A stretch of DNA of 64,000 bases. It comes from Lutimonas saemankumensis (GTDB lineage Bacteria > Bacteroidota > Bacteroidia > Flavobacteriales > Flavobacteriaceae). Of the stretch, positions 498 to 41,767 are shown in pieces. The notes under the pieces are model-generated. The model was not told the origin of the DNA. It did no database searches and saw only the letters and a program-made list of their open reading frames with translations. The first letter of the stretch is position 1, and each line of letters opens with the position of its first letter. The DNA is taken from positions 558,001-622,000 of the forward strand of contig NZ_JAIUZR010000004.1 in the NCBI RefSeq assembly GCF_020171465.1, written 5' to 3'. A program made the translations under genes and the position numbers.

Positions 498-508
498 AAA
501 GAGGAGCT

Positions 509-988: not shown

Positions 989-1317
989 AAAATATAAAAC
1001 CGGCAGAAAAGACCCTGATGGATTTAATAGAATGATCCGAATACAGTTTCTGTTGAAACTCAAATTAAACTTATTAATCTGTTAAGATCGAATCTATCTG
1101 TAACTTAGCTTCAAAACTGATCTCAACAATAAATTCCATAAGTGCCTCATCTCCTATTGCTTTTGTTTACAGGCAATGCTCCTGGTTGGTGACTAATTTT
1201 GACATTTTAAGACTCATTTCAATAGAAAAGAAAGATTACAGAGGCACCCTATCAAGTAATCAATATTGATTATTTTAGCGATTGAAAAATGATGCAACTA
1301 AAATTTGAAACAGGTCT
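989..1317. other. Gene-free gap between moaC and mobA
   Basis: No credible coding region is seen in these 329 bases on either strand. The only longer reading frame is antisense to moaC and shows no recognisable protein. A TAATTTTG at 1194-1201 fits the Bacteroidota -7 consensus and could be the promoter of the mobA gene, about 115 bases before its start, but no matching -33 TTG stands at the usual distance. The gap separates moeA-moaC from mobA-moeB, so these may be two transcripts. Confidence 0.4.
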
Positions 1318-2433: not shown

Positions 2434-2438
2434 GTGGA

Positions 2439-3530
2439 ATGACCATGGAAGAGACGAAAAAGAAAATGTATATCCGTCAAACTACCCTTCCCGAATTAGG
2501 GCTCAAGGGTCAGAAAAAATTGAATTCGGCCAAAATCGCAGTTATTGGTTGTGGCGGATTGGGAAGTGCCGCTGCCGTATATCTGGCAGGGAGCGGAATC
2601 GGGCATATTCATCTTATCGATTATGATCAAATAGATCAAAGTAATCTTCATCGACAGGTTTTTTATCATTTGGACCAGGTAGGAGAAAGTAAAGCTAAAG
2701 TTTTATCAGAGCATATCTCATTATTGAATCCGTATGTAAAAACCAGTATCGATAATCGGGCCTTAACCAAAGAAACAATACATTCGCAATTATCCGATTA
2801 TCAGATTATAGTTGATTGTACGGATAGCTTATCGACCAAGTACCTTTTGAACGATTACTCTGTACTCAATGAAAAAGTACTGGTTTATGGATCTTTATAC
2901 AAGCATGATGGATATGTAGGGGTATTCAATTTAGAAACCGAAAGTGGCCGATCCTCCAATTTGAGGGATGCATTTCCACAAATGCCAAAGAATCCTGTAC
3001 CTAATTGCTCAGAGATAGGAACCTTGAATCCAATTGCTGGAATCATCGGTTTGATGCAGGCCAATGAAGTGATTAAAATTGTAACCGGACTGGGTGAGCC
3101 ACTTATTAACAGTATTCTCATTTACAACACCCTTGATAATTCTCAATATAAAATGAATCTCAAACGCGGCTTTTCAAAAGCAAAAATTGATTCCTTCTAT
3201 GAGTCAGAACCCTATTTTGACCCCGCTTGCCAGCCCCAGGAAAAGGTTTTGTTGATTGAAGGTGTTGAATTGAAAAGCAGGCTGGGCTCAGAAAGTCTTA
3301 TGATACTATCCGTTATTGAAAATGAGGAGGTAAAACACCCTTTTGAAGTGGACCTCAGGATGTCATTAAAGAAATTTGATCCTGAAAAGCTTCAGCCTTT
3401 CCATGATCATGATATCGTTGTGGTATGCCATAAAGGTATCTCCAGTTATTTAGCGACAAAACGCATTAAAAAAGAATTTCCAGAGATGAATGTCTTAAGT
3501 CTCAAAGGAGGGATTGACAGGTTCATGTAA
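2439..3530 (+). CDS. moeB: MoeB/ThiF-family adenylyltransferase with C-terminal rhodanese domain
   Basis: MoeB-like enzymes adenylate the C-terminal glycine of MoaD so that sulfur can be loaded on it. Residues about 1-240 are an E1-like fold with the nucleotide-binding GCGGLGS, an acidic DYDQIDQSNLHRQ segment, DCTDS, and the PNC motif. The last ~100 residues are a rhodanese domain with its active-site loop around VVCHKGISS, so the protein could both activate and supply sulfur, as human MOCS3 does. Odd point: both CxxC zinc pairs of E. coli MoeB are missing (RSSNLRD replaces the first, and no CxxC follows the NTLDNSQYK stretch). It follows mobA by 5 bases. ThiF or HesA are alternatives, but the Moco neighbours favour MoeB. 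Confidence 0.85.
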   Translation: MTMEETKKKMYIRQTTLPELGLKGQKKLNSAKIAVIGCGGLGSAAAVYLAGSGIGHIHLIDYDQIDQSNLHRQVFYHLDQVGESKAKVLSEHISLLNPYVKTSIDNRALTKETIHSQLSDYQIIVDCTDSLSTKYLLNDYSVLNEKVLVYGSLYKHDGYVGVFNLETESGRSSNLRDAFPQMPKNPVPNCSEIGTLNPIAGIIGLMQANEVIKIVTGLGEPLINSILIYNTLDNSQYKMNLKRGFSKAKIDSFYESEPYFDPACQPQEKVLLIEGVELKSRLGSESLMILSVIENEEVKHPFEVDLRMSLKKFDPEKLQPFHDHDIVVVCHKGISSYLATKRIKKEFPEMNVLSLKGGIDRFM

Positions 3531-3578: not shown

Positions 3579-5357
3579 ATGTCTGAAATAAAAAATCCTT
3601 TATCCTTTTACCAGTCAGAAAAACGAAGATTGGAACAAATTGGAAACACCTTGAAATCACAACTAAAACTGATAGGGCTTCTGAGGACGGGACTGTTCCT
3701 GATCCTGTTGATTTCGAGTTATTATCTGATCGAACGTACCTTGATTCTTTTAACGGTGATCGGACCGGGATCTGTTTTATTTTTGATGCTGGTTCTCAAA
3801 TATCAAAAGCTACAAAAAAAAAGGAAACTCTCTTTGCATTTGTTAAATATAAACCTCGAGGAAATTGAAATTTTACAGGGAGAATTTCATCATTTCCCTT
3901 CTGGAATAGAATTTTCGGATCCCCGTCATTACTACAGTAACGACATTGATCTTTTTGGCCAGGGGTCATTTTTCCAATTTATGAATAGGACAGCAACCCG
4001 GTCAGGTACATCGAAACTTGCATCCTTGCTTCTTGAAAACAAAGTCGAACAGATAAAACAAAAACAATTCGTTGTTCAAGAGCTTGCACAAAAAGTATCC
4101 TGGAGACAACATTTTCTGGCTAAAGCCCGAATGGTCAAAAATGAAACAAATCCTGAAGACATCATTTCTTGGATAAAGAATCACAAAAGGTTTCTTCCAG
4201 GGTTCATGAAATATTTGACGCTGATATTTAGTTCTCTTTCTCTCATTTTTGTCATCCTCACGGCACTATCCCCGGACTTTTTTTACCTCCTTGTAATATG
4301 GTTTTTTGCAGGTCTACTGATCACTTTACCTTATTTTAAAAGAATAAATACACTTTATGAAGCTTCGGGCAAGATCAAAAATACCTTTAAACAATACGAA
4401 TCTCTACTAAGCCAGATTGAATCGGTTGAATTAAATGCCGTTCTCGCCAGGGAGCAACAAAACAGAATACACTCTACTGATAAGAAAGCCTCAGAAATTT
4501 TTAAAGAATTTTCACAAATACTCGATGCTTTTGATCAAAGAAATAACATGCTCTTCGGAATTCTCGGGAATGGATTTCTATTATGGGACATAAAAAATAC
4601 GAACAGAATAGATTCTTGGATTTCAAAATACCGGCATCAGGTTGATCAATGGTTTGAGGTGATTGCTTACTTTGATTCTCAGATCTCTTTATCCAATTAT
4701 GTTTTTAATCATCCCGATCATAATTTCAGCTCCATCGTGGATACGAATCAAATTTTGAAGGCCAGGGAACTGGGTCACCCCTTGATAAGCAGGGACCAGC
4801 GAGTTTCAAATGACTATGAAATAAACGATAAAGAATTTCATATTATCACCGGGGCTAACATGGCCGGTAAAAGTACCTTTTTAAGAACGGTATCTTTAGC
4901 ATTGGTGATGACAAATGTCGGGCTTCCGGTCTGTGCAAAACGTATGGCATACAGTCCAATTAAATTAATTACCAGTATGAGAACCAGTGACTCTCTTAAG
5001 GATGATGACTCGTACTTCTATGCTGAAATAAAGCGATTGAGATTTATAGTGGAATCCATGAAAAAAGAGTCGTATTTTGTTATTCTCGATGAGATCCTAA
5101 AGGGAACAAACAGCAAAGACAAGGCACTTGGATCTATAAAATTTGTTGAAATACTGGTTCACTCCGGGTCCTCCGGAATCATTGCCACACATGACCTGAG
5201 TTTATGTGAAATTGAGAAAAAATTTGATCAGGTTCAAAACAAGTATTTTGATGCTGAAATCCGAAATAAAGAATTGTTCTTTGACTATAAATTGAAAGAT
5301 GGGGTTTGCAAAAACATGAATGCGTCGTTTCTACTTAAAAAAATGGAAATTATTTAA
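3579..5357 (+). CDS. Membrane-associated MutS-like ATPase
   Basis: The C-terminal third is a MutS-type ABC ATPase: Walker A GANMAGKST at about residues 425-433 and Walker B VILDEILKGTNS near 500, with a late GIIATHD switch histidine. The N-terminal half has no mismatch-recognition domain. Instead there are two hydrophobic hairpins (about residues 32-70 and 210-252) that predict four membrane segments. This architecture recurs in Bacteroidota as a MutS-related protein of unknown role. It starts 48 bases after the moeB-like gene and its stop abuts the stop of the convergent moaE with no base between. The ATPase fold is certain; a role in mismatch repair is not supported. Confidence 0.8.
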   Translation: MSEIKNPLSFYQSEKRRLEQIGNTLKSQLKLIGLLRTGLFLILLISSYYLIERTLILLTVIGPGSVLFLMLVLKYQKLQKKRKLSLHLLNINLEEIEILQGEFHHFPSGIEFSDPRHYYSNDIDLFGQGSFFQFMNRTATRSGTSKLASLLLENKVEQIKQKQFVVQELAQKVSWRQHFLAKARMVKNETNPEDIISWIKNHKRFLPGFMKYLTLIFSSLSLIFVILTALSPDFFYLLVIWFFAGLLITLPYFKRINTLYEASGKIKNTFKQYESLLSQIESVELNAVLAREQQNRIHSTDKKASEIFKEFSQILDAFDQRNNMLFGILGNGFLLWDIKNTNRIDSWISKYRHQVDQWFEVIAYFDSQISLSNYVFNHPDHNFSSIVDTNQILKARELGHPLISRDQRVSNDYEINDKEFHIITGANMAGKSTFLRTVSLALVMTNVGLPVCAKRMAYSPIKLITSMRTSDSLKDDDSYFYAEIKRLRFIVESMKKESYFVILDEILKGTNSKDKALGSIKFVEILVHSGSSGIIATHDLSLCEIEKKFDQVQNKYFDAEIRNKELFFDYKLKDGVCKNMNASFLLKKMEII

Positions 5358-5786
5358 TCAGGGATGCGCATTGACCCATACCTCTCCATCTTCAAAGTAT
5401 TCTTTTTTCCAGATCGGTACAGTTTTCTTCAAGGTATCTATAGCATACTGACACGCTTTGAAAGCCGCTTCTCTGTGCGCTGAAGATACAGCCACGATCA
5501 CAGGAACTTCACCTATTGCCAGTACTCCTTTTGTGTGATGCAATGCCAGCCTGTGCACACCAAACTTTTCTACTGCCTGCACGGCAATCAAACTCATTTC
5601 CTTAACGGCCATTGGATCATAGGCTGAAAATTCAAGCTTTAAAACCTCTTTTTCTTCAGTTCGGTTTCTAACTGTTCCCACAAAAAATGCAAGCCCTCCA
5701 CAGCCCTCATCCCGAACAAACTCATAACATTCATCAAGCGACAATGCTTCCTCGGTAAGTTTAACAAAAATTCTGTTGTTCCTCAT
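5358..5786 (-). CDS. moaE: Molybdopterin synthase catalytic subunit MoaE
   Basis: MoaE, with MoaD, inserts two sulfurs into cyclic pyranopterin monophosphate to form molybdopterin. The 142-residue protein shows the family pattern: GCGGLAFFVGTVRN near the start, HREAAFKACQYAID, and the C-terminal WKKEYFEDGEVWVN segment that carries the catalytic lysines. It lies 3 bases after moaD on the same strand, so the two subunits are co-transcribed. Its stop codon touches the stop of the opposing MutS-like gene. Confidence 0.95.
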   Translation of the reverse strand: MRNNRIFVKLTEEALSLDECYEFVRDEGCGGLAFFVGTVRNRTEEKEVLKLEFSAYDPMAVKEMSLIAVQAVEKFGVHRLALHHTKGVLAIGEVPVIVAVSSAHREAAFKACQYAIDTLKKTVPIWKKEYFEDGEVWVNAHP

Positions 5787-5789
5787 TCT

Positions 5790-6032
5790 TTACCCTCCGC
5801 TTACGGGCGGTATAACCGCGATTATGTCATTATTATTGATTTGTGTATCATCTTCGGCATAACTTTCATTAACAGCAATAGAAAAGGTATCCATCGAACT
5901 GAATGAAGGATAGTTTCTTAAGAGTAATTCTCTAACATCCTTAACTGAAATATCTTTCTCGATTTGAAAGTTTGTGCTGTTTGTTCCAGCCAGGTCTTTG
6001 GATATACCAAAGAACAGTATCTTAATCTCCAT
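5790..6032 (-). CDS. moaD: Molybdopterin synthase sulfur-carrier subunit MoaD
   Basis: An 80-residue ubiquitin-fold protein ending in VIPPVSGG; the terminal Gly-Gly is the tail that the MoeB-like protein adenylates and thiolates. It is the first gene of moaD-moaE. A TATTTTTG -7 box on the minus strand at 6046-6053 lies 13 bases upstream, predicting a very short leader. The gene is divergent from the molybdoenzyme operon, so cofactor supply and enzyme could share the control region at 6054-6263. Confidence 0.93.
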   Translation of the reverse strand: MEIKILFFGISKDLAGTNSTNFQIEKDISVKDVRELLLRNYPSFSSMDTFSIAVNESYAEDDTQINNNDIIAVIPPVSGG

Positions 6033-6127: not shown

Positions 6128-6170
6128 GTAACTAATGTTACAACCCAACCGTGGCTTTTCACTAAATTTG
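6128..6170 (+). promoter_or_regulatory. Crp/Fnr-type operator plus -7 box of the molybdoenzyme operon
   Basis: GTAAC-TAAT-GTTAC at 6128-6141 is a perfect 5-4-5 inverted repeat. A -7 box TAAATTTG follows at 6163-6170, with 21 bases between the two. The operator centre would sit near -41 relative to a start about 6 bases after the box, the class II activator position. The same operator, spacing and box recur at 15608-15650. The half-site resembles those of Crp/Fnr regulators such as HcpR; which protein binds is inferred, and no such regulator gene is in the window. A further GTAAC at 6119-6123 may be an extra half-site. Confidence 0.65.
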
Positions 6171-6263: not shown

Positions 6264-7880
6264 ATGAAATACGGATTTATTATTGACAACAGAAAATGTA
6301 TTGGTTGTCATGCGTGCACCACAGCCTGTAAAAGTGAACATGATGTTCCCATAGGGGTTAACAGAACCTATGTAAAACAAGTCGAAAAAGGAGTATTCCC
6401 AAATACCCGAAGAATTTTTTCTGTCATGCGATGTAATCATTGTACTGATGCACCCTGTGTGGAAATCTGCCCGGTTGAGGCTTTGTACACAAGAGAGGAT
6501 GGAATCGTTGACTTTGACAATAACCGTTGCATAGGATGTAAATCCTGTATGCAGGCTTGTCCTTATGATGCCCTGTACATTGATCCTGACAACAAAACAG
6601 CTGCAAAATGTAATTATTGCGCGCACAGAGTAGAAGTAGGAAGGGCACCGGCATGTGTAGATGTTTGTCCTGAACACGCCATTATTGCGGGCGACATGGA
6701 TAATCCGCATACTGAAATTGCGACCTTACTTGCAAGGGAACAGGTAATGGTAAGAAAACCGGAAAAAGGTACGAACCCTAACTTGTTTTACATCAACGGT
6801 GATTACCAATCTCTTGATCCTGATACCACGGCAAGATCGGGTCCAGGTCTGTGGAATTCTCAGGCTCGGGGAGTTGGTCATTACGCCAAGGCCGCTGAAA
6901 AACTAATGAATACCAATGACGACATCAATCTTTTGCAAATGAGTATTGATAATGATCTTCAGGCCGCATATCAGAAAAAAGAAATGCAAAATCCAAATTA
7001 TATTGATGTGCTCAATGGAAAAGCCAGGCGTGTATACGATACTCCGGATAAAGGAATTCTATGGGGCTGGGAAGTATCCGCATATGTAACAACTAAAGCG
7101 ATCGCTGCAGGAGCTTTTTTGATCCCTTTGATGGCAATCATTTTTGGTTATGAGATCTCTTCCACAACAAAGCTTATTTCTGTAGGGCTTTCTCTGGGAT
7201 TTCTTGGATTGACCGGACTGTTTCTTGTGATGGATTTAGATCGTCCGGATAGATTTCTGAATGTTCTTTTACGTCCTCAATGGAATTCATGGCTGGTAAA
7301 AGGAGGATATACGATTTCAATTTTTGGCTTGCTGATGACTGTTTGGGGCGTAGCTACTTTTTTAGAATGGAGTATTCCTGAATTTTTTATTCTTGGGCTC
7401 ACAGGAGTTTTCGGTGTGATTTTAGCTATTTATACGGCCTTCCTTTTTGCTCAGGCCAAGGGTAGAGATTTTTGGCAAAGTCCAACCTTACCCCTTCACA
7501 TGCTGGTTCACAGTGTTCTGGCCGGTGCAGCCGTTTTTGCCATCCTCGCTGTTGTCTTCCAACCTGAAATCTGGATGGAAATTCTGGGAAGCGTAATCGG
7601 GGTTTCTTTAGTGATCAACCTGCTGACATTGGTAAGCGAGCTCACCATTACACACCCAACAAAAGCTGCGAAAAAAGTGGTGTCCATGATTCTGAAAGAA
7701 CAATATCGCGGACTGTTTTGGTTTGGAACTGTTATTCTTGGAAACATCGTGCCGCTATTGCTGATCATCTTTGTGCCGGGGGCAATAACTCTTGCTATTG
7801 CAGGAGTTTTGATCCTGATCGGGATTTATATAACTGAAAAAATATGGGTGGAGGCACCGCAACGAATACCTCTTGCTTAA
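6264..7880 (+). CDS. Four-cluster ferredoxin subunit fused to NrfD-type membrane subunit (CISM B-C fusion)
   Basis: Residues 1-~140 hold four [4Fe-4S] motifs with 16 cysteines (C12/15/18/22, C57/60/65/69, C89/92/95/99, C116/119/131/135), the DmsB/PsrB pattern of the electron-transfer subunit. A linker to about residue 265 leads to about eight hydrophobic segments of the NrfD/PsrC family, with the motif DLDRPDRF, which exchanges electrons with the quinone pool. In most complex iron-sulfur molybdoenzymes these are two proteins; here they form one 538-residue chain. No signal peptide precedes the ferredoxin, so the clusters face the cytoplasm. The catalytic subunit follows 53 bases downstream. 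An operator-promoter pair lies at 6128-6170. Confidence 0.9.
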   Translation: MKYGFIIDNRKCIGCHACTTACKSEHDVPIGVNRTYVKQVEKGVFPNTRRIFSVMRCNHCTDAPCVEICPVEALYTREDGIVDFDNNRCIGCKSCMQACPYDALYIDPDNKTAAKCNYCAHRVEVGRAPACVDVCPEHAIIAGDMDNPHTEIATLLAREQVMVRKPEKGTNPNLFYINGDYQSLDPDTTARSGPGLWNSQARGVGHYAKAAEKLMNTNDDINLLQMSIDNDLQAAYQKKEMQNPNYIDVLNGKARRVYDTPDKGILWGWEVSAYVTTKAIAAGAFLIPLMAIIFGYEISSTTKLISVGLSLGFLGLTGLFLVMDLDRPDRFLNVLLRPQWNSWLVKGGYTISIFGLLMTVWGVATFLEWSIPEFFILGLTGVFGVILAIYTAFLFAQAKGRDFWQSPTLPLHMLVHSVLAGAAVFAILAVVFQPEIWMEILGSVIGVSLVINLLTLVSELTITHPTKAAKKVVSMILKEQYRGLFWFGTVILGNIVPLLLIIFVPGAITLAIAGVLILIGIYITEKIWVEAPQRIPLA

Positions 7881-7933
7881 ATGAATTCACATAAACTACA
7901 GACTGAAGTATTTTAAACTTTTAAATCAAAAAC

Positions 7934-10825
7934 ATGGGCTATAAGAAGGCATCTTTTATAGAGAATCTGGCAGAGAAAATTGGCCTTATTCCTGATCTTC
8001 ACAAGGAAGGTTATCAAGAACACGATCAAGACATGCGTCACTTCAGTGATGAAGAGGTGGCTGCTATGTACGAAAATTTTCCACCTCCGGAAAAATGGGA
8101 TAACTGGATCGAGTATGATCCCAAAGCCTGGCCGAAAAAGAAAAAAACGGATTATCAAATTGTTCCCACTACATGTTTCAATTGCGAGAGCGCCTGTGGT
8201 TTAACGGCTTTTATAGACAAGTCTTCGGGGGAAATTAAAAAATTTGAAGGCAACCCTTATCACCCCGGAAGCAGGGGCAGAAACTGCGCAAAGGGGCCTG
8301 CAACTATTAATCAGATCACAGACCCAGACCGAATACTCTTCCCTTTGAAAAGAAAGGGTAAAAGAGGTGATGGGGAATGGGAGAGAATTTCCTGGGATGA
8401 GGCGCTGGATACAATTGCAAAACGTATCAGAAAAGCCTTGAAAGAAGATAGGCATAATGAGATCGCTTATCACGTTGGAAGACCAGGGCATGAGGGGTTT
8501 ATGAACTGGGTTCTGCCTTCTTGGGGAATTGACGGACATAATTCTCATACCAATATCTGCTCTTCAGGAGCTCGTTTTGGATACAATATCTGGTATGGTT
8601 ACGACAGGCCATCCCCAGATCACGCTGAAGCCAAATTTATATTGTTGATCTCAGCACATCTTGAATCCGGACATTATTTTAATCCACATGCCCAGAGGAT
8701 CATTGAAGGAAAAATGAAAGGTGCCAAACTTGCCACAATGGATCCAAGATTGTCAAATACGGCCTCCATGAGTGACTATTGGCTTCCTTCCTATCCGGGA
8801 ACAGAAGCTGCTGTTTTACTGTCAATGGCACTCATTATTCTTCAGAAAAATCTATACAACCGAGCCTATCTTGAAAACTGGACCAACTGGGAAGCATACT
8901 TAAAAGCCAAACACCCTGATAAAGAGCTGGTATTTGAGAATTTCATTGAGGCGATGAAAGAAGAATACAAGGAATTCACACCTGAATTTGCTGAAAAAGA
9001 ATCCGGGGTCAAAGCAGAAATGATACGAGAAATAGCTGTTAAGATAGGTGAAGCAGGAGAGCGTTTTGCAAGTCACAACTGGAGAAGTGCAGGTGCTTCC
9101 AATTTAGGGGGCTGGGCTGTAGCCAGATGTCTTCATTTTCTCACGGTACTCACTGGAGCCGTTGGGGCAAAAGGAGGAACTTCGCCAAATTCATGGAACA
9201 AGTTTAAACCGGAAGTTCCCAATCCTCCCAAACCCCAGAAAAAATGGAATGAGATACACTTTCCCAAAGAATACCCTCTTGCATTTTTTGAAATGAGTCA
9301 GTTGCTCCCGCACTTCCTCAAGGAAGGAAGAGGAAAAATGGACGTCTATTTCTCCAGGGTCTTTAATCCCGTATGGACCTATCCTGACGGATTTACCTGG
9401 ATGGAAATGTTTATGGACGAAACGAAGTTTGGCCTGCACACTGCCCTAACTCCTACCTGGAACGAGACTGCTTTTTTTGCAGATCTTGTCCTGCCCATGG
9501 GTCTGGCAGCGGAAAGACATGATATCAATTCCTATGCTACTCATGGAGGAACCTGGGTTGCATTCAGGCAGCCGGTTTTAAGGGAAGCTGCGCGCCGAAA
9601 TGGTTCACCGGTGGAATATACTTATGAAGCTAATCCCGGCGAAGTATGGGAAGAAGATGAATTCTGGATCGAGTTGAGCTGGCGCATTGACCCTGATGGA
9701 AGCATGGGTATCAGAAAACATTTTGAATCTCCTTACAGGCCCGGTAAAAAAATAACAATTGAAGAATATTACCAATATATTTTTGAGCGCATCAAAGGAT
9801 TACCGGAGGCTGCTAAAAAAGAGGGTCTTACCGAATTTCAATATATGTCAAAGTACGGTGCTTTTGAAATTGAAAAAGGAGAGTCCTATAAAAAGAATGA
9901 AACCCTTTTGACGAAAGAAGAACTCAAAGATTCTGTTGTTGACAAAGACACGGGAGTCATCCGAAAAAATGGAAAAGATATCGGGGTGATGATCCAGGGC
10001 AAAGCTATGGTTGGTTTTCCTACGCCCTCGCGGAAAAATGAATTTTATTCTCAAACCATGGTAGACTGGAACTGGCCCGAATACGCAATTCCACAATATA
10101 TAAAGAGTCATATCCATAATGAGGTGCTTGATAAATCAAATGGTGAATATGTCCTGGTACCTACTTTCCGTTTACCTACCCTTATTCATTCCCGATCAGG
10201 AAACGCAAAATGGCTGGTGGAAATCTCTAACCGAAACCCTATTTGGATGCACCCTGATGATGCAGCAAAATGGAATTTTAAAACGGGTGATCTGGTTAAG
10301 ATGAATACAGATATCGGTTACTTTGTAGATAAGGTCTGGGTTACTCAGTCAATGAAACCAGGAGTTGTAGCCTGTTCTCATCATATTGGAAGATGGCGCC
10401 GTGAGCAGGATACTATCGGAAACCGATGGGCAACCAATACAGTTGACATTAAAAACGAAGCCAAGGGAGAGTGGAAAATGACTACAAAAAGAGGGATAAA
10501 GCCTTTTGATTCTGATGACAAAGATTCAAAGAGAATTTTTTGGAAAGACGGCGGAGTTCATCAGAACATAACACATGCGGTTCATCCTGATCCGATAAGT
10601 GGAATGCATACCTGGCATCAAAGGGTACGTATTGAAAAACCGGGTCCCGATGACAGTTACGGCGATATTTTTGTCGATACAAATAAGTCTCATGAAGTTT
10701 ATAAAGAGTGGTTATCCATGACTAGGCCGGCGCCTGGCCCCGATGGCTTAAGAAGGCCTCTTTGGTTTAAGCGTGCTTTTAAACCCGATGAATCCACTTA
10801 TTATATAAAAGATGAGAAAAAATAA
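7934..10825 (+). CDS. Molybdopterin oxidoreductase catalytic subunit, cytoplasmic (candidate SoeA-like sulfite dehydrogenase)
   Basis: A 963-residue DMSO-reductase-family enzyme. One [4Fe-4S] site is formed by C81, C84, C88 and C118. C209 in NICSSGAR is the likely molybdenum ligand, as in the Psr/Phs/Soe branch. The C-terminal cofactor-binding domain is recognisable around VLVPTFRLPTLIHS. There is no twin-arginine signal, only a ~75-residue polar extension before the cluster, so it works in the cytoplasm, unlike PsrA, PhsA or TtrA but like SoeA. It pairs with the fused ferredoxin/NrfD protein upstream. Neighbouring SulP transporters and persulfide dioxygenase favour sulfite as substrate. The family is certain; the substrate is inferred. 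Polysulfide or another sulfur or arsenic compound remains possible. Confidence 0.85.
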   Translation: MGYKKASFIENLAEKIGLIPDLHKEGYQEHDQDMRHFSDEEVAAMYENFPPPEKWDNWIEYDPKAWPKKKKTDYQIVPTTCFNCESACGLTAFIDKSSGEIKKFEGNPYHPGSRGRNCAKGPATINQITDPDRILFPLKRKGKRGDGEWERISWDEALDTIAKRIRKALKEDRHNEIAYHVGRPGHEGFMNWVLPSWGIDGHNSHTNICSSGARFGYNIWYGYDRPSPDHAEAKFILLISAHLESGHYFNPHAQRIIEGKMKGAKLATMDPRLSNTASMSDYWLPSYPGTEAAVLLSMALIILQKNLYNRAYLENWTNWEAYLKAKHPDKELVFENFIEAMKEEYKEFTPEFAEKESGVKAEMIREIAVKIGEAGERFASHNWRSAGASNLGGWAVARCLHFLTVLTGAVGAKGGTSPNSWNKFKPEVPNPPKPQKKWNEIHFPKEYPLAFFEMSQLLPHFLKEGRGKMDVYFSRVFNPVWTYPDGFTWMEMFMDETKFGLHTALTPTWNETAFFADLVLPMGLAAERHDINSYATHGGTWVAFRQPVLREAARRNGSPVEYTYEANPGEVWEEDEFWIELSWRIDPDGSMGIRKHFESPYRPGKKITIEEYYQYIFERIKGLPEAAKKEGLTEFQYMSKYGAFEIEKGESYKKNETLLTKEELKDSVVDKDTGVIRKNGKDIGVMIQGKAMVGFPTPSRKNEFYSQTMVDWNWPEYAIPQYIKSHIHNEVLDKSNGEYVLVPTFRLPTLIHSRSGNAKWLVEISNRNPIWMHPDDAAKWNFKTGDLVKMNTDIGYFVDKVWVTQSMKPGVVACSHHIGRWRREQDTIGNRWATNTVDIKNEAKGEWKMTTKRGIKPFDSDDKDSKRIFWKDGGVHQNITHAVHPDPISGMHTWHQRVRIEKPGPDDSYGDIFVDTNKSHEVYKEWLSMTRPAPGPDGLRRPLWFKRAFKPDESTYYIKDEKK

Positions 10826-10847
10826 ATCTGAAATCTATAATTAGTTC

Positions 10848-10855
10848 TATATTTG
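10848..10855 (+). promoter_or_regulatory. Predicted -7 box of the TlpA-like lipoprotein gene
   Basis: TATATTTG fits TAnnTTTG and stands 29 bases before the ATG at 10885. The gene may therefore have its own transcript. Confidence 0.4.
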
Positions 10856-10884
10856 GCTTTAGAATTTTAATTTAAAGCTTACTA

Positions 10885-11916
10885 ATGAAAAAAATTGTAT
10901 ATCTACTGGCTGTAATAGTCCTTGCAGCCTGTCAAAATGAACCCAAGGATTACGTTACAATCTCAGGACAGATTACGGACAAAAATAGCGATTCGGTAGT
11001 GATCAGAAGCAGGACCTATTCTAAAACTATTCCTGTTGATGAAAACGGAAGTTTTTCAGATACCCTGAAGGTAGAAACGGGTACCTATAACTTTTATGAC
11101 GGGGGAGAATCTACTTCGATCTTTTTGAAAAACGGATTTGATCTTGTTATTTCACTGGACACCAAGATGTTTGATGAAACAGTAAAATACTCAGGAACTG
11201 GTGCAGAACACAGTAATTTCCTGGCTAAAAAAGCCTTGCTTCAGGAAGAATTATTAGATCTTGATGCCCTAATGGCAATGGACTCAGTTTCCAGAGAAGA
11301 AGAATTTTCTTCAATAGAAAATCAACTTACAGAATTTTATAATTCTGACAAAGCAATCGATACCTCAGTGGTAAATAACAGTATCAGAACAATTCAGCCC
11401 ATGCTGAATTCGTATAGAAGGTATATCAATAATGATCTTGCAATGAAAAGGGACCTTCCAAAAGGAGCTGCCTCTCCTACATTCACGGATTACGAAAATT
11501 TTTCAGGTGGTAAAACCTCTCTTTCAGATCTTAAAGGAAAATATGTTTATGTTGATGTCTGGGCAACCTGGTGTGGACCATGTAAGGCTGAAATACCATC
11601 TTTGAAAAAAGTTGAAAAATTGTACCACGATAAGAATATTGCTTTTGTAAGTGTCTCTATAGATGATGACAGATCACATGGAGGGTCATGGGAACAGGCA
11701 AATAAAGATTGGAGAAAAATGGTTGAAGAAAAAGAATTAGGAGGTATTCAGTTGTTCGCTCCTAATGGTTGGAAATCTGAATTTGTGGAAGCCTATAAAA
11801 TTAACGGTATTCCTCGTTTTATTCTTATCGACCCAGAAGGTAACATTGTTACCCCTAGCGCGCCAAGACCATCAAGTGAAGCGCTGATAGAGCTCTTCAA
11901 TGAAGAGCAAATCTAA
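10885..11916 (+). CDS. TlpA-like thioredoxin lipoprotein with N-terminal DUF4369-type domain
   Basis: The N-terminus is a lipoprotein signal with lipobox LAAC (Cys at residue 16), so the mature protein is anchored on the periplasmic side. Residues about 22-110 resemble the DUF4369 beta domain common in Bacteroidota. A helical linker follows, then a thioredoxin fold with active site WATWCGPC near residue 230 and cis-proline GIPRF. Such proteins reduce periplasmic disulfides. It lies 59 bases after the molybdoenzyme gene and before the sulfate transporters, so it may handle thiols in sulfur metabolism, though this is guesswork. Confidence 0.85.
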   Translation: MKKIVYLLAVIVLAACQNEPKDYVTISGQITDKNSDSVVIRSRTYSKTIPVDENGSFSDTLKVETGTYNFYDGGESTSIFLKNGFDLVISLDTKMFDETVKYSGTGAEHSNFLAKKALLQEELLDLDALMAMDSVSREEEFSSIENQLTEFYNSDKAIDTSVVNNSIRTIQPMLNSYRRYINNDLAMKRDLPKGAASPTFTDYENFSGGKTSLSDLKGKYVYVDVWATWCGPCKAEIPSLKKVEKLYHDKNIAFVSVSIDDDRSHGGSWEQANKDWRKMVEEKELGGIQLFAPNGWKSEFVEAYKINGIPRFILIDPEGNIVTPSAPRPSSEALIELFNEEQI

Positions 11917-11937
11917 ATGCATCAGGAAAAATAAAAT

Positions 11938-11960
11938 AAGGAGAGCAAAGTCTCTCCTTT
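11938..11960 (+). terminator. Weak hairpin after the TlpA-like gene
   Basis: AAGGAGAG pairs with CTCTCCTT around a six-base loop and is followed by a poor T tract. It is a possible terminator only. Confidence 0.4.
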
Positions 11961-12079
11961 CTATATATTCAGCAAAAAACATAGGCCTGGTCTATGTTGG
12001 AAAATTGTCTTGCAAAGAGGCCTTTTTTTACCTTTTTAAAAGAAGTAATGCTGTTTATAGATTATTGTAATTCTGAGTA

Positions 12080-13801
12080 ATGTTACAACGATTATTTCCT
12101 TTTCTCGTATGGTTACCACAGGCAAAAAAGTCATGGAAAGATGATTTAGTTGCCGGATTGACCGGTACCATTATTGTTATTCCTCAGGCTGTGGCTTTTG
12201 CCATTATTGCAGGGCTCCCACCAGTTTATGGATTTTATACGGCTATGATTACTCCAATCATTGCTGCTTTGTTCGGATCCTCATATCACTTGATTTCCGG
12301 ACCTACCACTGCCATTTCTATTGTAGTCTTTGCCACGGTAAGTGAAATGGCAGACCCTATGACTGAAATCGAAACCTATGTTTCCCTCACCCTTGTGCTC
12401 ACTTTTATGGCTGGATTGATTCAGTTTGCCATGGGACTGGCAAGAATGGGAAAACTCGTAAATTTTGTGTCGCATTCTGTGATCATAGGTTTTACTGCGG
12501 GTGCCGGGGTCCTGATTGCTTTTAAGCAGTTACAACATGTATTTGGAATGGAAATTCCAAGAGGAAGTTCGTTTTATACCATTCTGAAAACGATCATATC
12601 AAACATTGAACAAACCAACTGGTATGTTTTTACGGTTGCTATTGGAACCATGGTGATTGCAATTATCATCAAGAAATATATTCGCCCCCTTTCCAGGTTC
12701 TATATGCTTATTGCAATGATTCTTGGAAGTATTTTGGCCTTTTTACTAGGGGGAGAAGCAAAAGGGATAGAAAACATCGGTACAATTCCCTCAAATTTAC
12801 CCCCGTTTAGTATTCCTGCATTTTCTCTTACCAATATTCAGGAACTTAGTACCGGAGCATTAACCCTGGCCTTACTTGGACTCATTGAAGCCGTTGCCAT
12901 CGCCAGGTCAATTGCCTTGTCATCTCACCAAAGAATAGATGGAAATCAGGAGTTCAAAGGACAGGGATTGTCAAATATGATAGCCAGTTTTTTTTCCAGC
13001 TATGTGGGATCCGGTTCCTTCACAAGATCAGGTGTTAATTATCAGGCAGGAGCAAAAACTCCCTTATCTGCCATTTTTGCCGCCGTTTTTTTGATGATTG
13101 TTCTCTTGCTTTTTTCACCTTATGCTTCCTACCTTCCCAAATCCGCTATGGGCGGAATTATTCTTTTGGTTGGTTATAACCTTATCGATTTTCATCATAT
13201 TCATCAGGTTCTAAAAAGCAGCGGTCGCGAGATCATTGTTTTGGGAACAACGATGTTTGGGGCATTATTTTTTGAACTGGAAACTGCCCTGTTTTCCGGA
13301 ATCGGGCTTTCTCTGTTTTTCTATCTCGAAAAAACGGCTAAACCTAATATTGCGATTCTTGGAACCACTAAAGCTCATCGTTTTATCAATATTATTAGAA
13401 ATCCGGAAGTAAAGGAATGTCCTCAGCTAAAAATAGTTCGAATCGATGGTTCTATTTATTTTGGTGCTTTGGAGGTGGTGTCGGAATTCTTTTCAAATCT
13501 TTATGAAAAAGGCGAAGTAAAGCATGTGTTGGTCATTGCCAAGGGAATTAACTTTATCGATCTATCCGGTGCAAGTTGGCTCGCTTATGAAGCAAAAAAA
13601 TGGCAGGATCGAGGAGGCGGAATTTATTTTAGCGGTTTGAAAATTGTCAGTCAGCAAATTCTAAAGAAAGGAGGCTTTCGAAACGAAATTGGTGAAGAAA
13701 ATTTTTACCCTGACAAACCTTCGGCGATCAGTGATATTTATTCCAAATTGGACAAAAACATTTGTGAGACCTGTAAAGTTCGTATCTTTCACGAATGTTA
13801 A
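12080..13801 (+). CDS. SulP family inorganic anion transporter with STAS domain (first copy)
   Basis: A 573-residue inner-membrane SulP permease. The N-terminal ~400 residues hold the multi-helix core with IPQAVAFAIIAGLPPVYGFY, the characteristic early SulP signature. The last ~130 residues form a cytoplasmic STAS domain (IDGSIYFGALE, FIDLSGASWL). The C-terminus ends in CETCKVRIFHEC, a Cys-rich tail that could bind a metal. SulP proteins carry sulfate, bicarbonate or other anions; next to the molybdoenzyme, sulfate or sulfite movement is the natural guess. The second copy is 55 bases downstream, and the two differ clearly in sequence. Confidence 0.9.
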   Translation: MLQRLFPFLVWLPQAKKSWKDDLVAGLTGTIIVIPQAVAFAIIAGLPPVYGFYTAMITPIIAALFGSSYHLISGPTTAISIVVFATVSEMADPMTEIETYVSLTLVLTFMAGLIQFAMGLARMGKLVNFVSHSVIIGFTAGAGVLIAFKQLQHVFGMEIPRGSSFYTILKTIISNIEQTNWYVFTVAIGTMVIAIIIKKYIRPLSRFYMLIAMILGSILAFLLGGEAKGIENIGTIPSNLPPFSIPAFSLTNIQELSTGALTLALLGLIEAVAIARSIALSSHQRIDGNQEFKGQGLSNMIASFFSSYVGSGSFTRSGVNYQAGAKTPLSAIFAAVFLMIVLLLFSPYASYLPKSAMGGIILLVGYNLIDFHHIHQVLKSSGREIIVLGTTMFGALFFELETALFSGIGLSLFFYLEKTAKPNIAILGTTKAHRFINIIRNPEVKECPQLKIVRIDGSIYFGALEVVSEFFSNLYEKGEVKHVLVIAKGINFIDLSGASWLAYEAKKWQDRGGGIYFSGLKIVSQQILKKGGFRNEIGEENFYPDKPSAISDIYSKLDKNICETCKVRIFHEC

Positions 13802-13856
13802 ATTCTGCAGTTTTATTTATACAATAACTTCTCAATACCTTTATTACTAGTGTCTT

Positions 13857-15590
13857 ATGCGTTTAAAACAGCATATTCCTTTTCTTCAATGGCTCAAAGA
13901 ATATCAGTTGAGCTGGTTAAAAAATGACCTCTTTGCAGGTATTACCATTGGAGTCATACTTATACCACAAGGAATTTCATATGCCATTATTGCGGGGCTA
14001 CCTCCTATTTATGGCCTCTATACGGCTTTAATACCGCAAGTGGTTTATGCCTTTCTGGGGACTTCGAGGCAACTGGCCATTGGGCCCGCAGCTATGGACT
14101 CGTTGATCGTGGCTTCAGGGATTGCCACACTGGCAACGATTGGATCCGAACATTTTATCGTTTTAGCTATATTACTTGCTTTTATGGTTGGGTTCTTTCA
14201 AGTGATTTTCGGGATATTCCGTATGGGATTTCTGGTGAATTTCCTGTCAAAACCTGTAATCAGTGGTTTTACATCAGGGTCTGCCATAATCATCGGAATG
14301 AATCAGATTGGCAATTTGCTTGGCGTTGAAATAAACAGAAGTAACCAGCTTCAGGAATTGATAAAGGCAGTTTTTAACGAATTCAATAACATGCATCTCT
14401 ACTCAGCATTGATAGGAATCATCTCGATACTATTGGTTGTTGGAATAAAGAAACTTAATAATCGGATTCCTGCCGCATTGATAGCGGTTATTCTCTCAAT
14501 TCTAGTCGTATACATGTTTGATCTGGATGGAAAAGGGGTAGTTATATTAGGTGAGATTCCAGCCGGTTTGCCTCAGTTTATCATCCCGGTTTTTGATACC
14601 GATCTGATGCAGGAAATTTCAGGACTGGCTTTGACACTTGCACTAATTGGCTTTATGGAAGCCATTTCAATAGCCAAATCAATTGAGTCAAAACACAATA
14701 GTTACAGAGTAGATGCAAATAAAGAATTAATTGCCCTTGGATTTGGCAACATGGTGGGATCCCTTTTTCAAACCTATCCAGCCACAGCGGGTTTCGCAAG
14801 GTCTGCGGTTAATGACCAATCCGGAGCAAAGACACCTTTATCTTCTTTATTTGCGGCCATGGTCATCGCTTTGTCATTACTGTTTTTAACACCGGCATTT
14901 TTCTATCTACCCAAAGCCGTACTTGCAGGAATCATTATTGTTGCTGCCTATGGCCTGCTGGATTTTTCCATGCCCAAAAAAATATTGACCTACAATATAA
15001 GAGACCTCATTATTTTGAACAGTACCTTAATGGTAACCATTTTTGTTGGGATCAAGGAAGGGATTATGTTTGGAATTATTCTCTCTCTGGTTATGCTGAT
15101 TTACAAAACAACCAAACCCCACATCGCTGTTCTGGGTAACGTCCCCGGTACTCATTTCTACAGAAATGTCAGGCGCTTTAAAGATGTGATCGTTCATAAA
15201 GAAATTCTTATTATCAGATTTGACGCCCAGTTGTATTTTGCAAATACTCAATATTTCAAAGATAAGCTCAAGGAATTTTCGTCTGAAAAAGGAAATGATC
15301 TCAGGCTTCTGGTAATTGACGGAGAAAGCCTGAATGCACTTGACAGTAGTGCAATTTATGCGCTCGAGGAGATTCATGATTATTTTACCGCAAAAGGTAT
15401 TACCATCGTATTTTCTGGATTAAAAGGTCCGGTAAGAGATACTTTAGTGAAGTCAAAACTGATGAAAAAAATTCGGTACGATCATTGCTTTATGAGTATA
15501 CAGGAAGCAGTAGATTGCTATAAAGAAAACTGCTTTGAATTACCGAAACGGTATAGTTATCAGGAATATACGAAACAATCGAATCGTTAA
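13857..15590 (+). CDS. SulP family inorganic anion transporter with STAS domain (second copy)
   Basis: A 577-residue SulP permease with the signature IPQGISYAIIAGLPPIYGLY and a C-terminal STAS domain (FDAQLYFANTQ, LDSSAIYALEE). It lacks the Cys-rich tail of the first copy. The short 55-base spacing suggests one transcript with it. Keeping two diverged copies side by side points to different substrates, directions or expression. The substrate cannot be read from sequence. Confidence 0.9.
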   Translation: MRLKQHIPFLQWLKEYQLSWLKNDLFAGITIGVILIPQGISYAIIAGLPPIYGLYTALIPQVVYAFLGTSRQLAIGPAAMDSLIVASGIATLATIGSEHFIVLAILLAFMVGFFQVIFGIFRMGFLVNFLSKPVISGFTSGSAIIIGMNQIGNLLGVEINRSNQLQELIKAVFNEFNNMHLYSALIGIISILLVVGIKKLNNRIPAALIAVILSILVVYMFDLDGKGVVILGEIPAGLPQFIIPVFDTDLMQEISGLALTLALIGFMEAISIAKSIESKHNSYRVDANKELIALGFGNMVGSLFQTYPATAGFARSAVNDQSGAKTPLSSLFAAMVIALSLLFLTPAFFYLPKAVLAGIIIVAAYGLLDFSMPKKILTYNIRDLIILNSTLMVTIFVGIKEGIMFGIILSLVMLIYKTTKPHIAVLGNVPGTHFYRNVRRFKDVIVHKEILIIRFDAQLYFANTQYFKDKLKEFSSEKGNDLRLLVIDGESLNALDSSAIYALEEIHDYFTAKGITIVFSGLKGPVRDTLVKSKLMKKIRYDHCFMSIQEAVDCYKENCFELPKRYSYQEYTKQSNR

Positions 15591-15607
15591 AATAAAAAAT
15601 ATTTCAG

Positions 15608-15650
15608 GTAACAAGAGTTACATATGATAATAATCCTTTGCTTAACTTTG
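15608..15650 (+). promoter_or_regulatory. Crp/Fnr-type operator plus -7 box of the persulfide dioxygenase gene
   Basis: GTAAC-AAGA-GTTAC at 15608-15621 is a perfect 5-4-5 inverted repeat. The -7 box TAACTTTG is at 15643-15650, again with 21 bases between them, identical to the arrangement at 6128-6170. The bases after both boxes also match (AGTAA). This is strong internal evidence for one shared activator acting from near -41. Confidence 0.65.
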
Positions 15651-15669
15651 AGTAAATTTAAAACAAAAA

Positions 15670-17094
15670 ATGATGAAAGTTGAACAATTATTTACAGGAT
15701 GTCTTGCTGAAATGGCCTACTATATTGAGTCAAATGGAGAGGCTGCAATCATTGATCCACTGAGAGAAACTGAACCTTATTTAAGAATGGCGGAGGCTGA
15801 CAATGCGAAAATTAAATATGTGTTCTTAACTCATTTTCACGCAGATTTTGTTTCCGGGCAATATGACCTGGCTCAAAAAACCGGAGCAAAAATAGTTTTC
15901 GGTCCAAATGCGACTGCAGAATACGATATATACAATGCTAAGGATGGTGAAGAATTCCCTCTTGGGGAAGGTAAAATAACCTTATTACACACTCCGGGGC
16001 ACACTATGGAATCTTCTTCTTACCTGATTACTGACGGGGAAGGAAACACGCCTTATATCTGTACTGGCGATTGCCTGTTCATCGGTGATGTGGGAAGACC
16101 TGATTTAGCTGTAAAGCAAGGTAAACTGACAGAAAAAGATCTGGCTGGTTACTTGTATGACTCATTGCGAAATAAAATTATGACACTACCTGATGATATC
16201 ATTATCTATCCAAATCATGGCGCTGGTTCGGCATGTGGTAAAAATATGAGTAGTGAAACTTTTGACACCCTGGGTAATCAAAAGAAAACCAATTATGCAC
16301 TTCGTGCAGACATGACCAAAGAGGAATTTATAGATGAGGTAACAACCGGTCTAAAACCACCACCACAGTATTTCCCTAATAATGTAAGAATGAACAAAAC
16401 GATCAATACAAGTATTGAAGACATTCTTCACAAAGGGACGACTCCTCTTGATGCAGCCACATTTAAAGAGATGAGTGAACAGAAGGATATTCTTGTTGTG
16501 GACACGCGTAGTAAAGAATTATATGCTGAGGAAGGAACGGTTCCTGGAGCCTGGTACATAGGTATTGATGGCAGTTTCGCACCTTGGGTTGGAGCTCTTA
16601 TCAAAGACATTAACCAAAAAATTATATTTATTGCAGATAGTGAAAACAGGGTAAATGAAATTGTAACAAGATTCTCACGAGTAGGTTATGATAATACTCT
16701 TGGGTATTTGGAAGGGGGAATCGCAAACTGGAAAAGCCATGGTTTCAAAGTAGACACGATAGGTTCTATTTCTGCTCATCTTTTTGCAGAGAAACTCGCG
16801 AAAGGTGAAATGGAAAAACCATTAGACGTGAGAAAAGAATCAGAGTATCTGTCGGAGCATGTTGTTGGTGTAGAAAATTTCCCTCTGGATTTCATCAATT
16901 CGAATTTTGCTGAAATAGATCCTAAAAAAGAATACTTTCTTCACTGTGCCAGTGGATATCGTTCATTGGTAGCAGCCTCAATTTTCAAGGCCAATGGCGT
17001 TGAAAAGGTAACGGATGTAAGAGGTGGATTCAAGGACCTAAAAGAAACTGACGCTCCTTTGACAGATTACGTTTGTCCTACGACCCTCTTGTAA
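15670..17094 (+). CDS. ETHE1-like MBL-fold persulfide dioxygenase fused to two rhodanese domains
   Basis: Residues ~1-240 are a metallo-beta-lactamase fold with the motif THFHADF (H55, H57, D59) and LLHTPGHT, then CTGDCLF and YPNHGAG. ETHE1-type enzymes bind one iron and oxidise glutathione or protein persulfide to sulfite. The sixth motif residue, normally His, is Phe60, which fits a single-metal site. Two rhodanese domains follow: the first has Asp where the catalytic Cys belongs (FIADSENR), the second has it (LHCASGYRS). Such fusions pass sulfane sulfur from the rhodanese to the dioxygenase. Sulfite produced here could feed the molybdoenzyme at 7934-10825. The substrate is inferred from family. 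Confidence 0.85.
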   Translation: MMKVEQLFTGCLAEMAYYIESNGEAAIIDPLRETEPYLRMAEADNAKIKYVFLTHFHADFVSGQYDLAQKTGAKIVFGPNATAEYDIYNAKDGEEFPLGEGKITLLHTPGHTMESSSYLITDGEGNTPYICTGDCLFIGDVGRPDLAVKQGKLTEKDLAGYLYDSLRNKIMTLPDDIIIYPNHGAGSACGKNMSSETFDTLGNQKKTNYALRADMTKEEFIDEVTTGLKPPPQYFPNNVRMNKTINTSIEDILHKGTTPLDAATFKEMSEQKDILVVDTRSKELYAEEGTVPGAWYIGIDGSFAPWVGALIKDINQKIIFIADSENRVNEIVTRFSRVGYDNTLGYLEGGIANWKSHGFKVDTIGSISAHLFAEKLAKGEMEKPLDVRKESEYLSEHVVGVENFPLDFINSNFAEIDPKKEYFLHCASGYRSLVAASIFKANGVEKVTDVRGGFKDLKETDAPLTDYVCPTTLL

Positions 17095-17175: not shown

Positions 17176-17601
17176 ATGATGAAATACTTAAAAAAAATAG
17201 TTTTTATTGCCTTGATCTTTAGTGGAATACTGTCTTCATGTGGCCAGGATAAAAAAACCAAATCTGGAATGAGCGAGGTGGAAGAGTCAAAAATTTCACT
17301 GATTACTGCTAAGGAACTTCACAAATTAAACGATTCAATCCTCCTGATTGATGTGAGGACACCAGAAGAATTTGCTTCAGGTCATATAGAGAACTCCATC
17401 AATATCAATATGAGATCCGATGATTTTAAAGAACAAATCGCTGCCCTTGAAAAAGGTAAGGAAATTTACCTCTACTGTAAAAAAGGAGGCAGAAGTAACA
17501 GTGCCGCAAAGATGATAGAGGATATGGAGTTTGAAAAAATCTATGACCTGAAAGGTGGAATTACTGCATGGGAAGACGAAGGGCTGAAAACCGTAAAATA
17601 A
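17176..17601 (+). CDS. Periplasmic rhodanese-domain lipoprotein
   Basis: A 141-residue protein with a lipoprotein signal (lipobox LSSC, Cys22) and one rhodanese domain: IDVRTPEEFASGHIENS, then the active loop YCKKGGRSNSA with its catalytic Cys. It would handle sulfane sulfur, such as thiosulfate or polysulfide, at the periplasmic face. It sits after the terminator of the dioxygenase gene, so it has its own start, and runs 21 bases ahead of the haem lipoprotein gene. Confidence 0.88.
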   Translation: MMKYLKKIVFIALIFSGILSSCGQDKKTKSGMSEVEESKISLITAKELHKLNDSILLIDVRTPEEFASGHIENSININMRSDDFKEQIAALEKGKEIYLYCKKGGRSNSAAKMIEDMEFEKIYDLKGGITAWEDEGLKTVK

Positions 17602-17622: not shown

Positions 17623-18186
17623 ATGATCCGGTATGTTTTTCTTCTGCTTCTGTCAATAGTTTTATATTCCTGTTCTAAAAAATTGACCAAGAAAGAAGCT
17701 GGACTCTTTAAAGAAAGAGGAAATCTAATTGTTCAAAAAACAGCAAAAGAACTATCTGGAAATCTCATGTCAAAAATGAAAGAAGGTGGTATTCCGCTGG
17801 CTGTGGAGTATTGTAATACGGCGGCCATTCCACTTACCTCAAAAGTATCAGAAACCGAGAAAGTAACCATAAAAAGGACTAGCCTAAAAACCAGAAATCC
17901 GTTAAACAAACCCAATGAAGAGGAACTAAAGGTTTTGAAAAAGTATTCCTCCAGGATAAATAAAAATGCTTCCCTTGAAGCCATTATTGAATTGGATGAA
18001 TCGGGCAAACCCCATTATTATGCACCTATACTGGTTGAAAAAAAGTGCCTTATGTGTCATGGAAGCCTTGACAAGGAGGTCTCAAAACAAGCTGACTCCA
18101 TAATAAAGTCGTTTTATCCCAACGATCTCGCCACGGGGTTTAGCGAGGGAGACTTAAGAGGAATCTGGAGCATTTCATTTCCCTGA
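17623..18186 (+). CDS. DUF3365 (Tll0287-like) c-type haem lipoprotein
   Basis: A 187-residue lipoprotein (lipobox LYSC) with a single haem-binding CLMCH near residue 143 and the DUF3365 pattern (AVEYCNTAA, RTSLKTRNPLNKPN). Proteins of this fold are haem sensors or small periplasmic electron carriers. It follows the rhodanese lipoprotein closely, suggesting a redox partner for periplasmic sulfur. No second haem motif is seen. The pairing is inferred from position only. Confidence 0.8.
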   Translation: MIRYVFLLLLSIVLYSCSKKLTKKEAGLFKERGNLIVQKTAKELSGNLMSKMKEGGIPLAVEYCNTAAIPLTSKVSETEKVTIKRTSLKTRNPLNKPNEEELKVLKKYSSRINKNASLEAIIELDESGKPHYYAPILVEKKCLMCHGSLDKEVSKQADSIIKSFYPNDLATGFSEGDLRGIWSISFP

Positions 18187-40127: not shown

Positions 40128-40142
40128 AGTTATTGATTTATG

Positions 40143-40158
40143 ATAATAATGGTATTAT
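40143..40158. promoter_or_regulatory. Candidate LysR binding site upstream of hutH
   Basis: ATAAT-AATGGT-ATTAT is a perfect 5-6-5 inverted repeat and fits the T-N11-A rule of LysR boxes (T44 to A57 is near this spacing). It would sit close to -40 of hutH and over the start region of the LysR gene. Confidence 0.45.
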
Positions 40159-40165
40159 AAAGCAT

Positions 40166-40185
40166 CAAATATAATCGTAAATTTG
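40166..40185. promoter_or_regulatory. Back-to-back -7 boxes of the lysR and hutH promoters
   Basis: Plus-strand TAAATTTG at 40178-40185 serves hutH (ATG at 40208). Minus-strand TATATTTG at 40166-40173 serves the LysR gene (ATG at 40127). The boxes are only four bases apart, so RNA polymerase can hardly bind both at once. Confidence 0.55.
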
Positions 40186-40207
40186 ATACAATTGAAAAGC
40201 AGCAATC

Positions 40208-41755: not shown

Positions 41756-41767
41756 TTTCTACGACGT

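Follow-up and report, generated by a model that had tools for sequence, protein, structure and literature searches.

Gene content and promoter layout of the locus

A 64,000-nucleotide stretch of the Lutimonas saemankumensis genome (contig NZ_JAIUZR010000004.1, positions 558,001 to 622,000; this whole stretch is called the window below) carries on its plus strand a group of genes that most likely encode cytoplasmic oxidation of persulfide to sulfate, a reading well supported by comparison with related loci. The first gene, BC (6264-7880; 538 amino acids), has the Pfam domains Fer4_11 and NrfD within a single chain, and is followed by A (7934-10825; 963 amino acids), the proposed sulfite dehydrogenase, with Molybdop_Fe4S4, Molybdopterin and Molydop_binding domains. 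Further downstream lie the transporter genes SulP1 (12080-13801) and SulP2 (13857-15590), both with Sulfate_transp and STAS domains, and a persulfide dioxygenase (PDO) fusion (15670-17094; 474 amino acids) with a Lactamase_B domain and two Rhodanese stretches. Open reading frame calls and Pfam domains agree with the initial annotation of this DNA on the positions of these genes and on their common strand.

Three plus-strand genes, all for lipoproteins, can be added to that list. One is a TlpA/ResA-like thiol-disulfide protein (10885-11916); the other two follow PDO and encode a rhodanese (17176-17601) and a protein with a Tll0287 domain and a CxxCH motif (17623-18186). The full order BC-A-TlpA-SulP1-SulP2-PDO-rhodanese is also present in L149, a Flavobacteriaceae metagenome-assembled genome (MAG). 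Because a terminator-like hairpin follows the TlpA gene (11938-11959, plus strand), the locus is probably not one operon but three units, BC-A-TlpA, SulP1-SulP2 and PDO-rhodanese-Tll; the hairpin scan returned 10 terminator-like sites in the window against 11.7 in shuffled sequences, which makes this hairpin weak evidence. Rhodanese and Tll0287-type proteins are paired again in two other Bacteroidota (L053:18705-19517 and L054:18159-18972), some 7-10 kb away from A.

The BC and PDO promoters are built alike. An operator-like palindrome, GTAACTAATGTTAC (6128-6141), lies 122 bp 5' of BC and is accompanied by a -7-like box, TAAATTTG (6163-6170), whose centre is 32.0 nt from the operator centre; ahead of PDO, the palindrome GTAACAAGAGTTAC (15608-15621) and the box TAACTTTG (15643-15650) are again 32.0 nt apart, centre to centre. 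The motif GTAACNNNNGTTAC occurs in exactly two copies in the 64 kb, at 6128 and 15608, where 0.03 would be expected and none of 100 shuffles held two, so that the shared operator proposed earlier before BC and before PDO is real; no third exact match stands 5' of SulP1 in the 64-kb window. A TAnnTTTG box, of which the plus strand of the window holds 31, is centred 32.0 nt downstream of the palindrome at four promoters, those of BC and PDO in both the window and L149. The L149 counterparts are at 26-68 and 9432-9474, with an identical 14-mer before BC and one mismatch in the palindrome before PDO. We take the 5-4-5 palindrome to be Crp/Fnr-like and the box to be the -7 element of Bacteroidota. 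The fixed position of the box relative to the operator suggests a common activator that turns on both the BC and the PDO units.

Motifs, membrane orientation and relatives of the molybdoenzyme

The 4Fe-4S domain of BC contains 16 cysteines, corresponding to four clusters, and is joined to an NrfD domain of eight transmembrane segments. The N-terminus of A carries a [4Fe-4S] motif, C-x2-C-x3-C...C, and reading of the sequence revealed no twin-arginine (Tat) motif; among the family rows, RR-x-F/M/L occurs in only 3 of 34, either in the stretch directly ahead of the first Cys motif or within the same RRY context. In structure matches Cys209 of A is aligned to cysteines of 2vpw, 6cz7 and 2e7z, which are presumably molybdenum ligands. 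The next position is Ser in all seven aligned members, and at this point formate dehydrogenases have His, which argues against A being an NrfD-anchored dehydrogenase for formate or another C1 compound ('FqoABC'). Such an enzyme was considered on account of a review that tentatively gives a formate role to an uncharacterised NrfD group from Chlorobi, Actinobacteria, Crenarchaeota, Chloroflexi and Deltaproteobacteria, phyla that overlap partly with the hosts discussed here; the same text describes FqoABC as having A, B and C in three subunits (PMC8076601), and we regard this function as very unlikely.

The orientation of the complex was examined by counting lysines and arginines in the BC loops on a 70-sequence alignment, in which eight membrane segments were found. 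The mean count is 16.0 on the B side and 1.06 on the opposite side, and the B side is richer in each of the 70 sequences; since the positive charges sit there throughout, both A and the B domain should lie on the cytoplasmic face, as was proposed in the initial annotation for a DMSO-reductase-family subunit devoid of a Tat signal. The charge bias is the reverse (N-terminal side, other side) in E. coli NrfD (5, 12) and DmsC (4, 8), in a plasmid TtrC (6, 12, on the basis of nine segments), and also in the Azoarcus (2, 10) and Sulfurovum (5, 15) C subunits. Segment calls on single sequences of four BC proteins gave only 6-8 segments, the Thermomicrobium roseum protein (10, 10) being uninformative.

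In several respects the complex resembles SoeABC of Allochromatium vinosum and Aquifex aeolicus, which likewise combines a cytoplasmic molybdenum subunit lacking a Tat signal with a four-cluster B subunit, and agrees with A in the Mo-ligand Cys position and the N-terminal [4Fe-4S] motif. The NrfD-like C part of the window protein appears inverted, as the review proposes for SoeC (PMC8076601). The gene arrangement is different: SoeABC is encoded by three genes, soeA, soeB and soeC, whereas the window has two, BC and then A, with B and C fused. The ferredoxin/NrfD partner predicted for A is thus present with both of its domains, although as a single fused gene placed before A, unlike soeABC. According to a paper on Nitrospinota, SoeABC is found in that phylum (PMC10839748), and one of our BC-A loci, L075, belongs to a Nitrospinota MAG; some printed SoeABC annotations may therefore be members of the BC-A family.

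The family is patchy among close relatives of the host and broad beyond them. Among 296 genomes of the window's order, A was detected in only one, its own (E <= 1e-50), and this patchiness suggests transfer within Bacteroidota. A phylum search at 1e-40 gave matches in 80 of 395 genomes: 63, including the source genome, hold family members, 51-76% identical to A outside that genome, and the remaining 17 have only matches near 30% identity. Plasmid-borne copies were found in T. roseum (59% identical), haloarchaea (52-57%) and on pRHL3 of Rhodococcus jostii (55.5%); no viral contig matched A. A scan of named genomes yielded 565 relatives, of which the best 80 define the 80 named loci used below; these relatives share 58-95% identity with the T. 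roseum protein and come from Thermomicrobia and other Chloroflexota, Chlorobium, Saprospiraceae and other Bacteroidota, Rokubacteria, Planctomycetota, Acidobacteriota, Gemmatimonadota, Nitrospinota, KSB1 and others. BC is located upstream of A in 71 of these loci, and of the other nine several begin close to where a short contig ends.

All 34 family rows fall into a single clade of the phylogenetic tree, with full support in the Shimodaira-Hasegawa-like approximate likelihood ratio test (SH-aLRT 100). Its sister consists of nine rows, from Azoarcus and others, all nine with a twin-arginine N-terminus; beyond it the nearest named references are PhsA/Psr, TtrA and ActB, whose order is not resolved. 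The A proteins of the window and L149 (86% identity) belong to a starred set of five together with Saprospiraceae/Lewinellaceae records. Since the tree is a quick one with several very long reference branches, it was used only for the family clade and its sister, and it was built without SoeA. Candidates for a SoeA reference were discarded for different reasons. Of the plasmid proteins, that on Rhodobacter pEJ01 looks ArxA-like and that of Alisedimentitalea has an adjoining chlorite dismutase; those on Phaeobacter, Paracoccaceae, Sinorhizobium and Rahnella plasmids have no A-B-C order among their neighbours. The Caballeronia and Cupriavidus candidates lie among open frames without this order, in records unannotated there, and those from other genomes proved to be Tat-bearing Psr-like, ActB-like or other proteins. 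Azoarcus plasmid pAZKH (L042:8251-13411) encodes a Tat-bearing sister protein whose B and C subunits are separate and which is accompanied by a TorD chaperone; an ars cluster lies a few kb away.

These relationships bear on the alternative that A-BC is a quinol-driven polysulfide, thiosulfate or tetrathionate reductase of the Psr/Phs/Ttr kind. The best solved-structure match of A, 2vpw (124 bits), is labelled 'thiosulfate reductase', and we take it to be PsrA of T. thermophilus; PsrABC and PhsABC share membership of the DMSO-reductase family with A, PsrA has a Cys at the ligand position, and PhsA/Psr and TtrA are, with ActB, the named references closest to the family on the tree. However, A scores under the curated cut-off of all 24 NCBIfam families listed, Fdh among them, and far under those of PhsA (184.6 bits, cut-off 694), TtrA (96.9 and 1750), ArrA (119 and 1600) and DmsA/YnfE (203.3 and 777.7). 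Twin-arginine signals are found on the references for PhsA, TtrA and Psr, whereas A lacks one and should face the cytoplasm. In addition, BC-A is linked to PDO, which uses O2, and to the dsr cluster of green sulfur bacteria, as described below. A reductase of this type is therefore unlikely.

Partner proteins and genomic neighbours

The PDO protein aligns over nearly its full three-domain length with the structures 3r2u (E 1.4e-49), which we take to be CstB, and 3tp9 (E 5.4e-54). The loop of its first rhodanese has no Cys, and the second contains Cys426. By its make-up (metallo-beta-lactamase, Cys-less rhodanese, rhodanese with Cys) the predicted protein is thus CstB-like rather than a plain ETHE1, so that the initial annotation was right about a persulfide-dioxygenase/rhodanese fusion and less so about its type. 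For CstB, thiosulfate is described as the end point (PMC9774590); because PDO is CstB-like, thiosulfate may be its side product, formed from part of the sulfite by the fused rhodanese. With the same three domains as the CstB type, the window PDO differs in sitting with a quinone-linked molybdoenzyme. Both transporters also bear out their earlier description as SulP proteins, scoring above the TIGR00815 cut-off of 380.45 (SulP1 383.2 and SulP2 514.9 bits); the source genome has eight SulP matches, with one gene split in two, and two of the eight lie within the locus.

We compared the neighbourhoods of BC-A in the 80 named loci by tblastn with chosen partners, distinguishing a near zone (up to 5 kb; 626 kb in total) from a far zone (415 kb). 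PDO-like genes are near BC-A in 26 loci and far in two, and SulP genes near in 18 and far in two. The corresponding near and far counts are 21 and 3 for rhodanese (partly PDO's own domains), 9 and 0 for TusA, 8 and 0 for DsrE, 6 and 0 for TauE, 4 and 0 for CsoR-like regulators, 2 and 0 for DsrC, 1 and 2 for DsrAB, and 4 and 1 for TlpA. The 38 loci with full flanks contain 12 PDO-like matches in 11 loci, where 0.26 would be expected from whole-genome density (57 PDO-like matches in 31 of the 38 whole genomes, 191.6 Mb). SulP is found in the flanks of 11 of the 38, against about 0.36 genes expected (80 matches in 191.6 Mb, split and weak ones included). The 26 PDO-linked loci come from Bacteroidota, Chloroflexota, Rokubacteria, KSB1, a deltaproteobacterial MAG and Acidobacteriota, and thus the link is not confined to one lineage.

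The TusA, DsrE and rhodanese neighbours would also suit an enzyme that oxidises sulfane sulfur or a sulfonate bound to such carriers directly, instead of free sulfite, and on Rhodococcus pRHL3 the DsrE and TusA genes are immediately 5' of BC-A. Yet TusA lies within 5 kb in only three of the 26 PDO-linked loci (L077, L084 and L109), and the nearby TauE, of the sulfite exporter family, points to free sulfite, which makes direct oxidation of carrier-bound sulfur improbable. A gene for an Mrp/NBP35 ATPase is located directly 3' of A in a haloarchaeal locus (L040:15011-16171) and on the Rhodococcus plasmid (L041:14793-15962); considered as a general partner because of the Rhodococcus and Natrinema plasmids, it was found in none of the 80 named loci, near or far. 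In T. roseum, the gene immediately 5' of BC-A (L039:13078-13356) is annotated as a 'metal-sensitive transcriptional regulator', presumably CsoR-like; a persulfide sensor is a possible role for it.

In green sulfur bacteria the family occurs in a different setting. Family f32, with 81 genomes, was taken as Chlorobiaceae, since the match coordinates in one of its genomes (G376) coincide with those in the genome of Chlorobium sp. N1 (G643), and 45 of the 63 family-holding genomes from the phylum search belong to it. Among the 81, A is found in 43 (63-68% identical to the window protein), and AprA and DsrA score over cut-off in 10 and 53, respectively. DsrA is present in 39 of 43 genomes with A, compared to 14 of 38 without it (Fisher p 3.5e-7), and A and AprA occur together in one of 81 (one-sided p 0.004); both tests count as independent genomes that in fact are not. 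The 53 DsrA-positive genomes include 39 with A and 7 with AprA, one of them having both, and 8 with neither (kinship ignored). A and DsrA share a contig in 23 of 39 genomes, at 4.5-5.7 kb in 19 and at 14-23 kb in four, and are on separate contigs in 16. In one genome (G363) the order is BC-A-TauE-DsrE2-rhodanese-TusA-(CobB/CobQ-like)-DsrC-DsrA, followed by a second NIR_SIR protein resembling DsrB.

Green sulfur bacteria are known to have a polysulfide-reductase-like complex 3 (PSRLC3) that presumably oxidises sulfite (PMC6338057, PMC5473276). By host, two-gene make-up and place, the BC-A family fits the PSRLC3 type: there are two genes beside dsr in Chlorobiaceae, with BC adjoining A in G363, and the near-exclusion of A and AprA is what would be expected if the complex took the place of AprBA in handling the sulfite that reverse Dsr makes. 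The window locus differs in having PDO and SulP in place of dsr.

On the other side of BC the locus adjoins molybdenum cofactor genes, as stated in the initial annotation: moaE and moaD (5358-6032, minus strand) are divergent from BC, and the 3' part of moeA, moaC and MobA-like and ThiF/MoeB-like genes occupy 27-3530 on the plus strand. A MAG of Sphingobacteriia (L138:1775-7548) has a matching arrangement, with moaE/moaD divergent to BC-A-SulP1. A MutS-like ATPase of 592 residues is encoded amid the cofactor genes (3579-5357), and elsewhere in the window (39219-43792) a urocanase and an aromatic amino acid lyase form a pair with a divergent LysR regulator alongside.

A probable route from persulfide to sulfate

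From the domains, cofactor motifs, orientation, gene linkage and common promoter layout, all of which can be read from the sequence, we infer substrates and directions of transfer as follows. PDO with its rhodanese would convert persulfide sulfur and O2 to sulfite, an activity known for the family and assigned to the window protein by analogy. A, which BC would anchor to the cytoplasmic face of the membrane, would oxidise sulfite to sulfate, the electrons passing through the four clusters of BC to quinone, and the SulP proteins would transport sulfate or a different oxyanion into or out of the cell. Sulfite:quinone oxidation, like that of SoeABC but with B and C fused, is to our mind the probable function of A-BC.

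The pathway proposed in the initial annotation thus agrees with the cytoplasmic face, with the links to PDO, reverse Dsr and SulP, with the near-exclusion of AprA and with the common promoter layout, but has to be amended for a BC-A order with fused B and C, unlike soeABC, and for a PDO of CstB make-up. Several observations weigh against it. A CstB-like PDO may pass on thiosulfate instead of sulfite. Of the 80 named loci, some of which are short, 54 gave no PDO-like match in the 5-kb zone, and neither did the flanks of 27 of the 38 full-flank loci; the linkage and co-occurrence counts ignore kinship. Among the Chlorobiaceae, four of the 43 A-bearing genomes have no DsrA over cut-off, and eight of the 53 DsrA-positive genomes have neither A nor AprA. 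The HybB control has 16 charges on its N-terminal side and 5 on the other, although with ten segments called it is not comparable to BC. Finally, the tree includes no characterised sulfite oxidase of A's type, and its nearest named proteins (PhsA/Psr, TtrA, ActB) are not sulfite oxidases.

Complexes of this kind are already known in SoeABC and, as a predicted sulfite oxidizer, in PSRLC3. In the literature searched, mainly titles and abstract openings, no cluster of PDO, SulP and PSRLC3 is described outside green sulfur bacteria; nor did these searches turn up a version linked to PDO and SulP, its occurrence in many phyla or the promoter layout that BC and PDO share. According to a study of Bohai Sea sediment, type III PDO is found in 114 Bacteroidota MAGs, SoeABC was not detected there, and SUOX and SorA are of low abundance (PMC12345210). 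With PDO widespread and these sulfite oxidases scarce, a PSRLC3-type complex beside PDO, under a common promoter layout, is a concrete candidate for oxidising the PDO-made sulfite of such heterotrophs.

In its widest form, the proposal is that PDO-carrying heterotrophs have their missing sulfite oxidase in BC-A: a single inward-facing family with fused B and C, present in more than ten bacterial phyla and in haloarchaea, that plugs into reverse Dsr in anaerobic phototrophs or, in aerobes, into PDO, and that gains energy from sulfur whose oxidation had passed for mere detoxification. This generalisation could equally well prove right or wrong. A PSRLC3-type complex beside PDO would in any case turn detoxification into a quinone-linked energy step, and since A belongs to a little-studied family found in many phyla, this step of the sulfur cycle may be widespread and have escaped notice.

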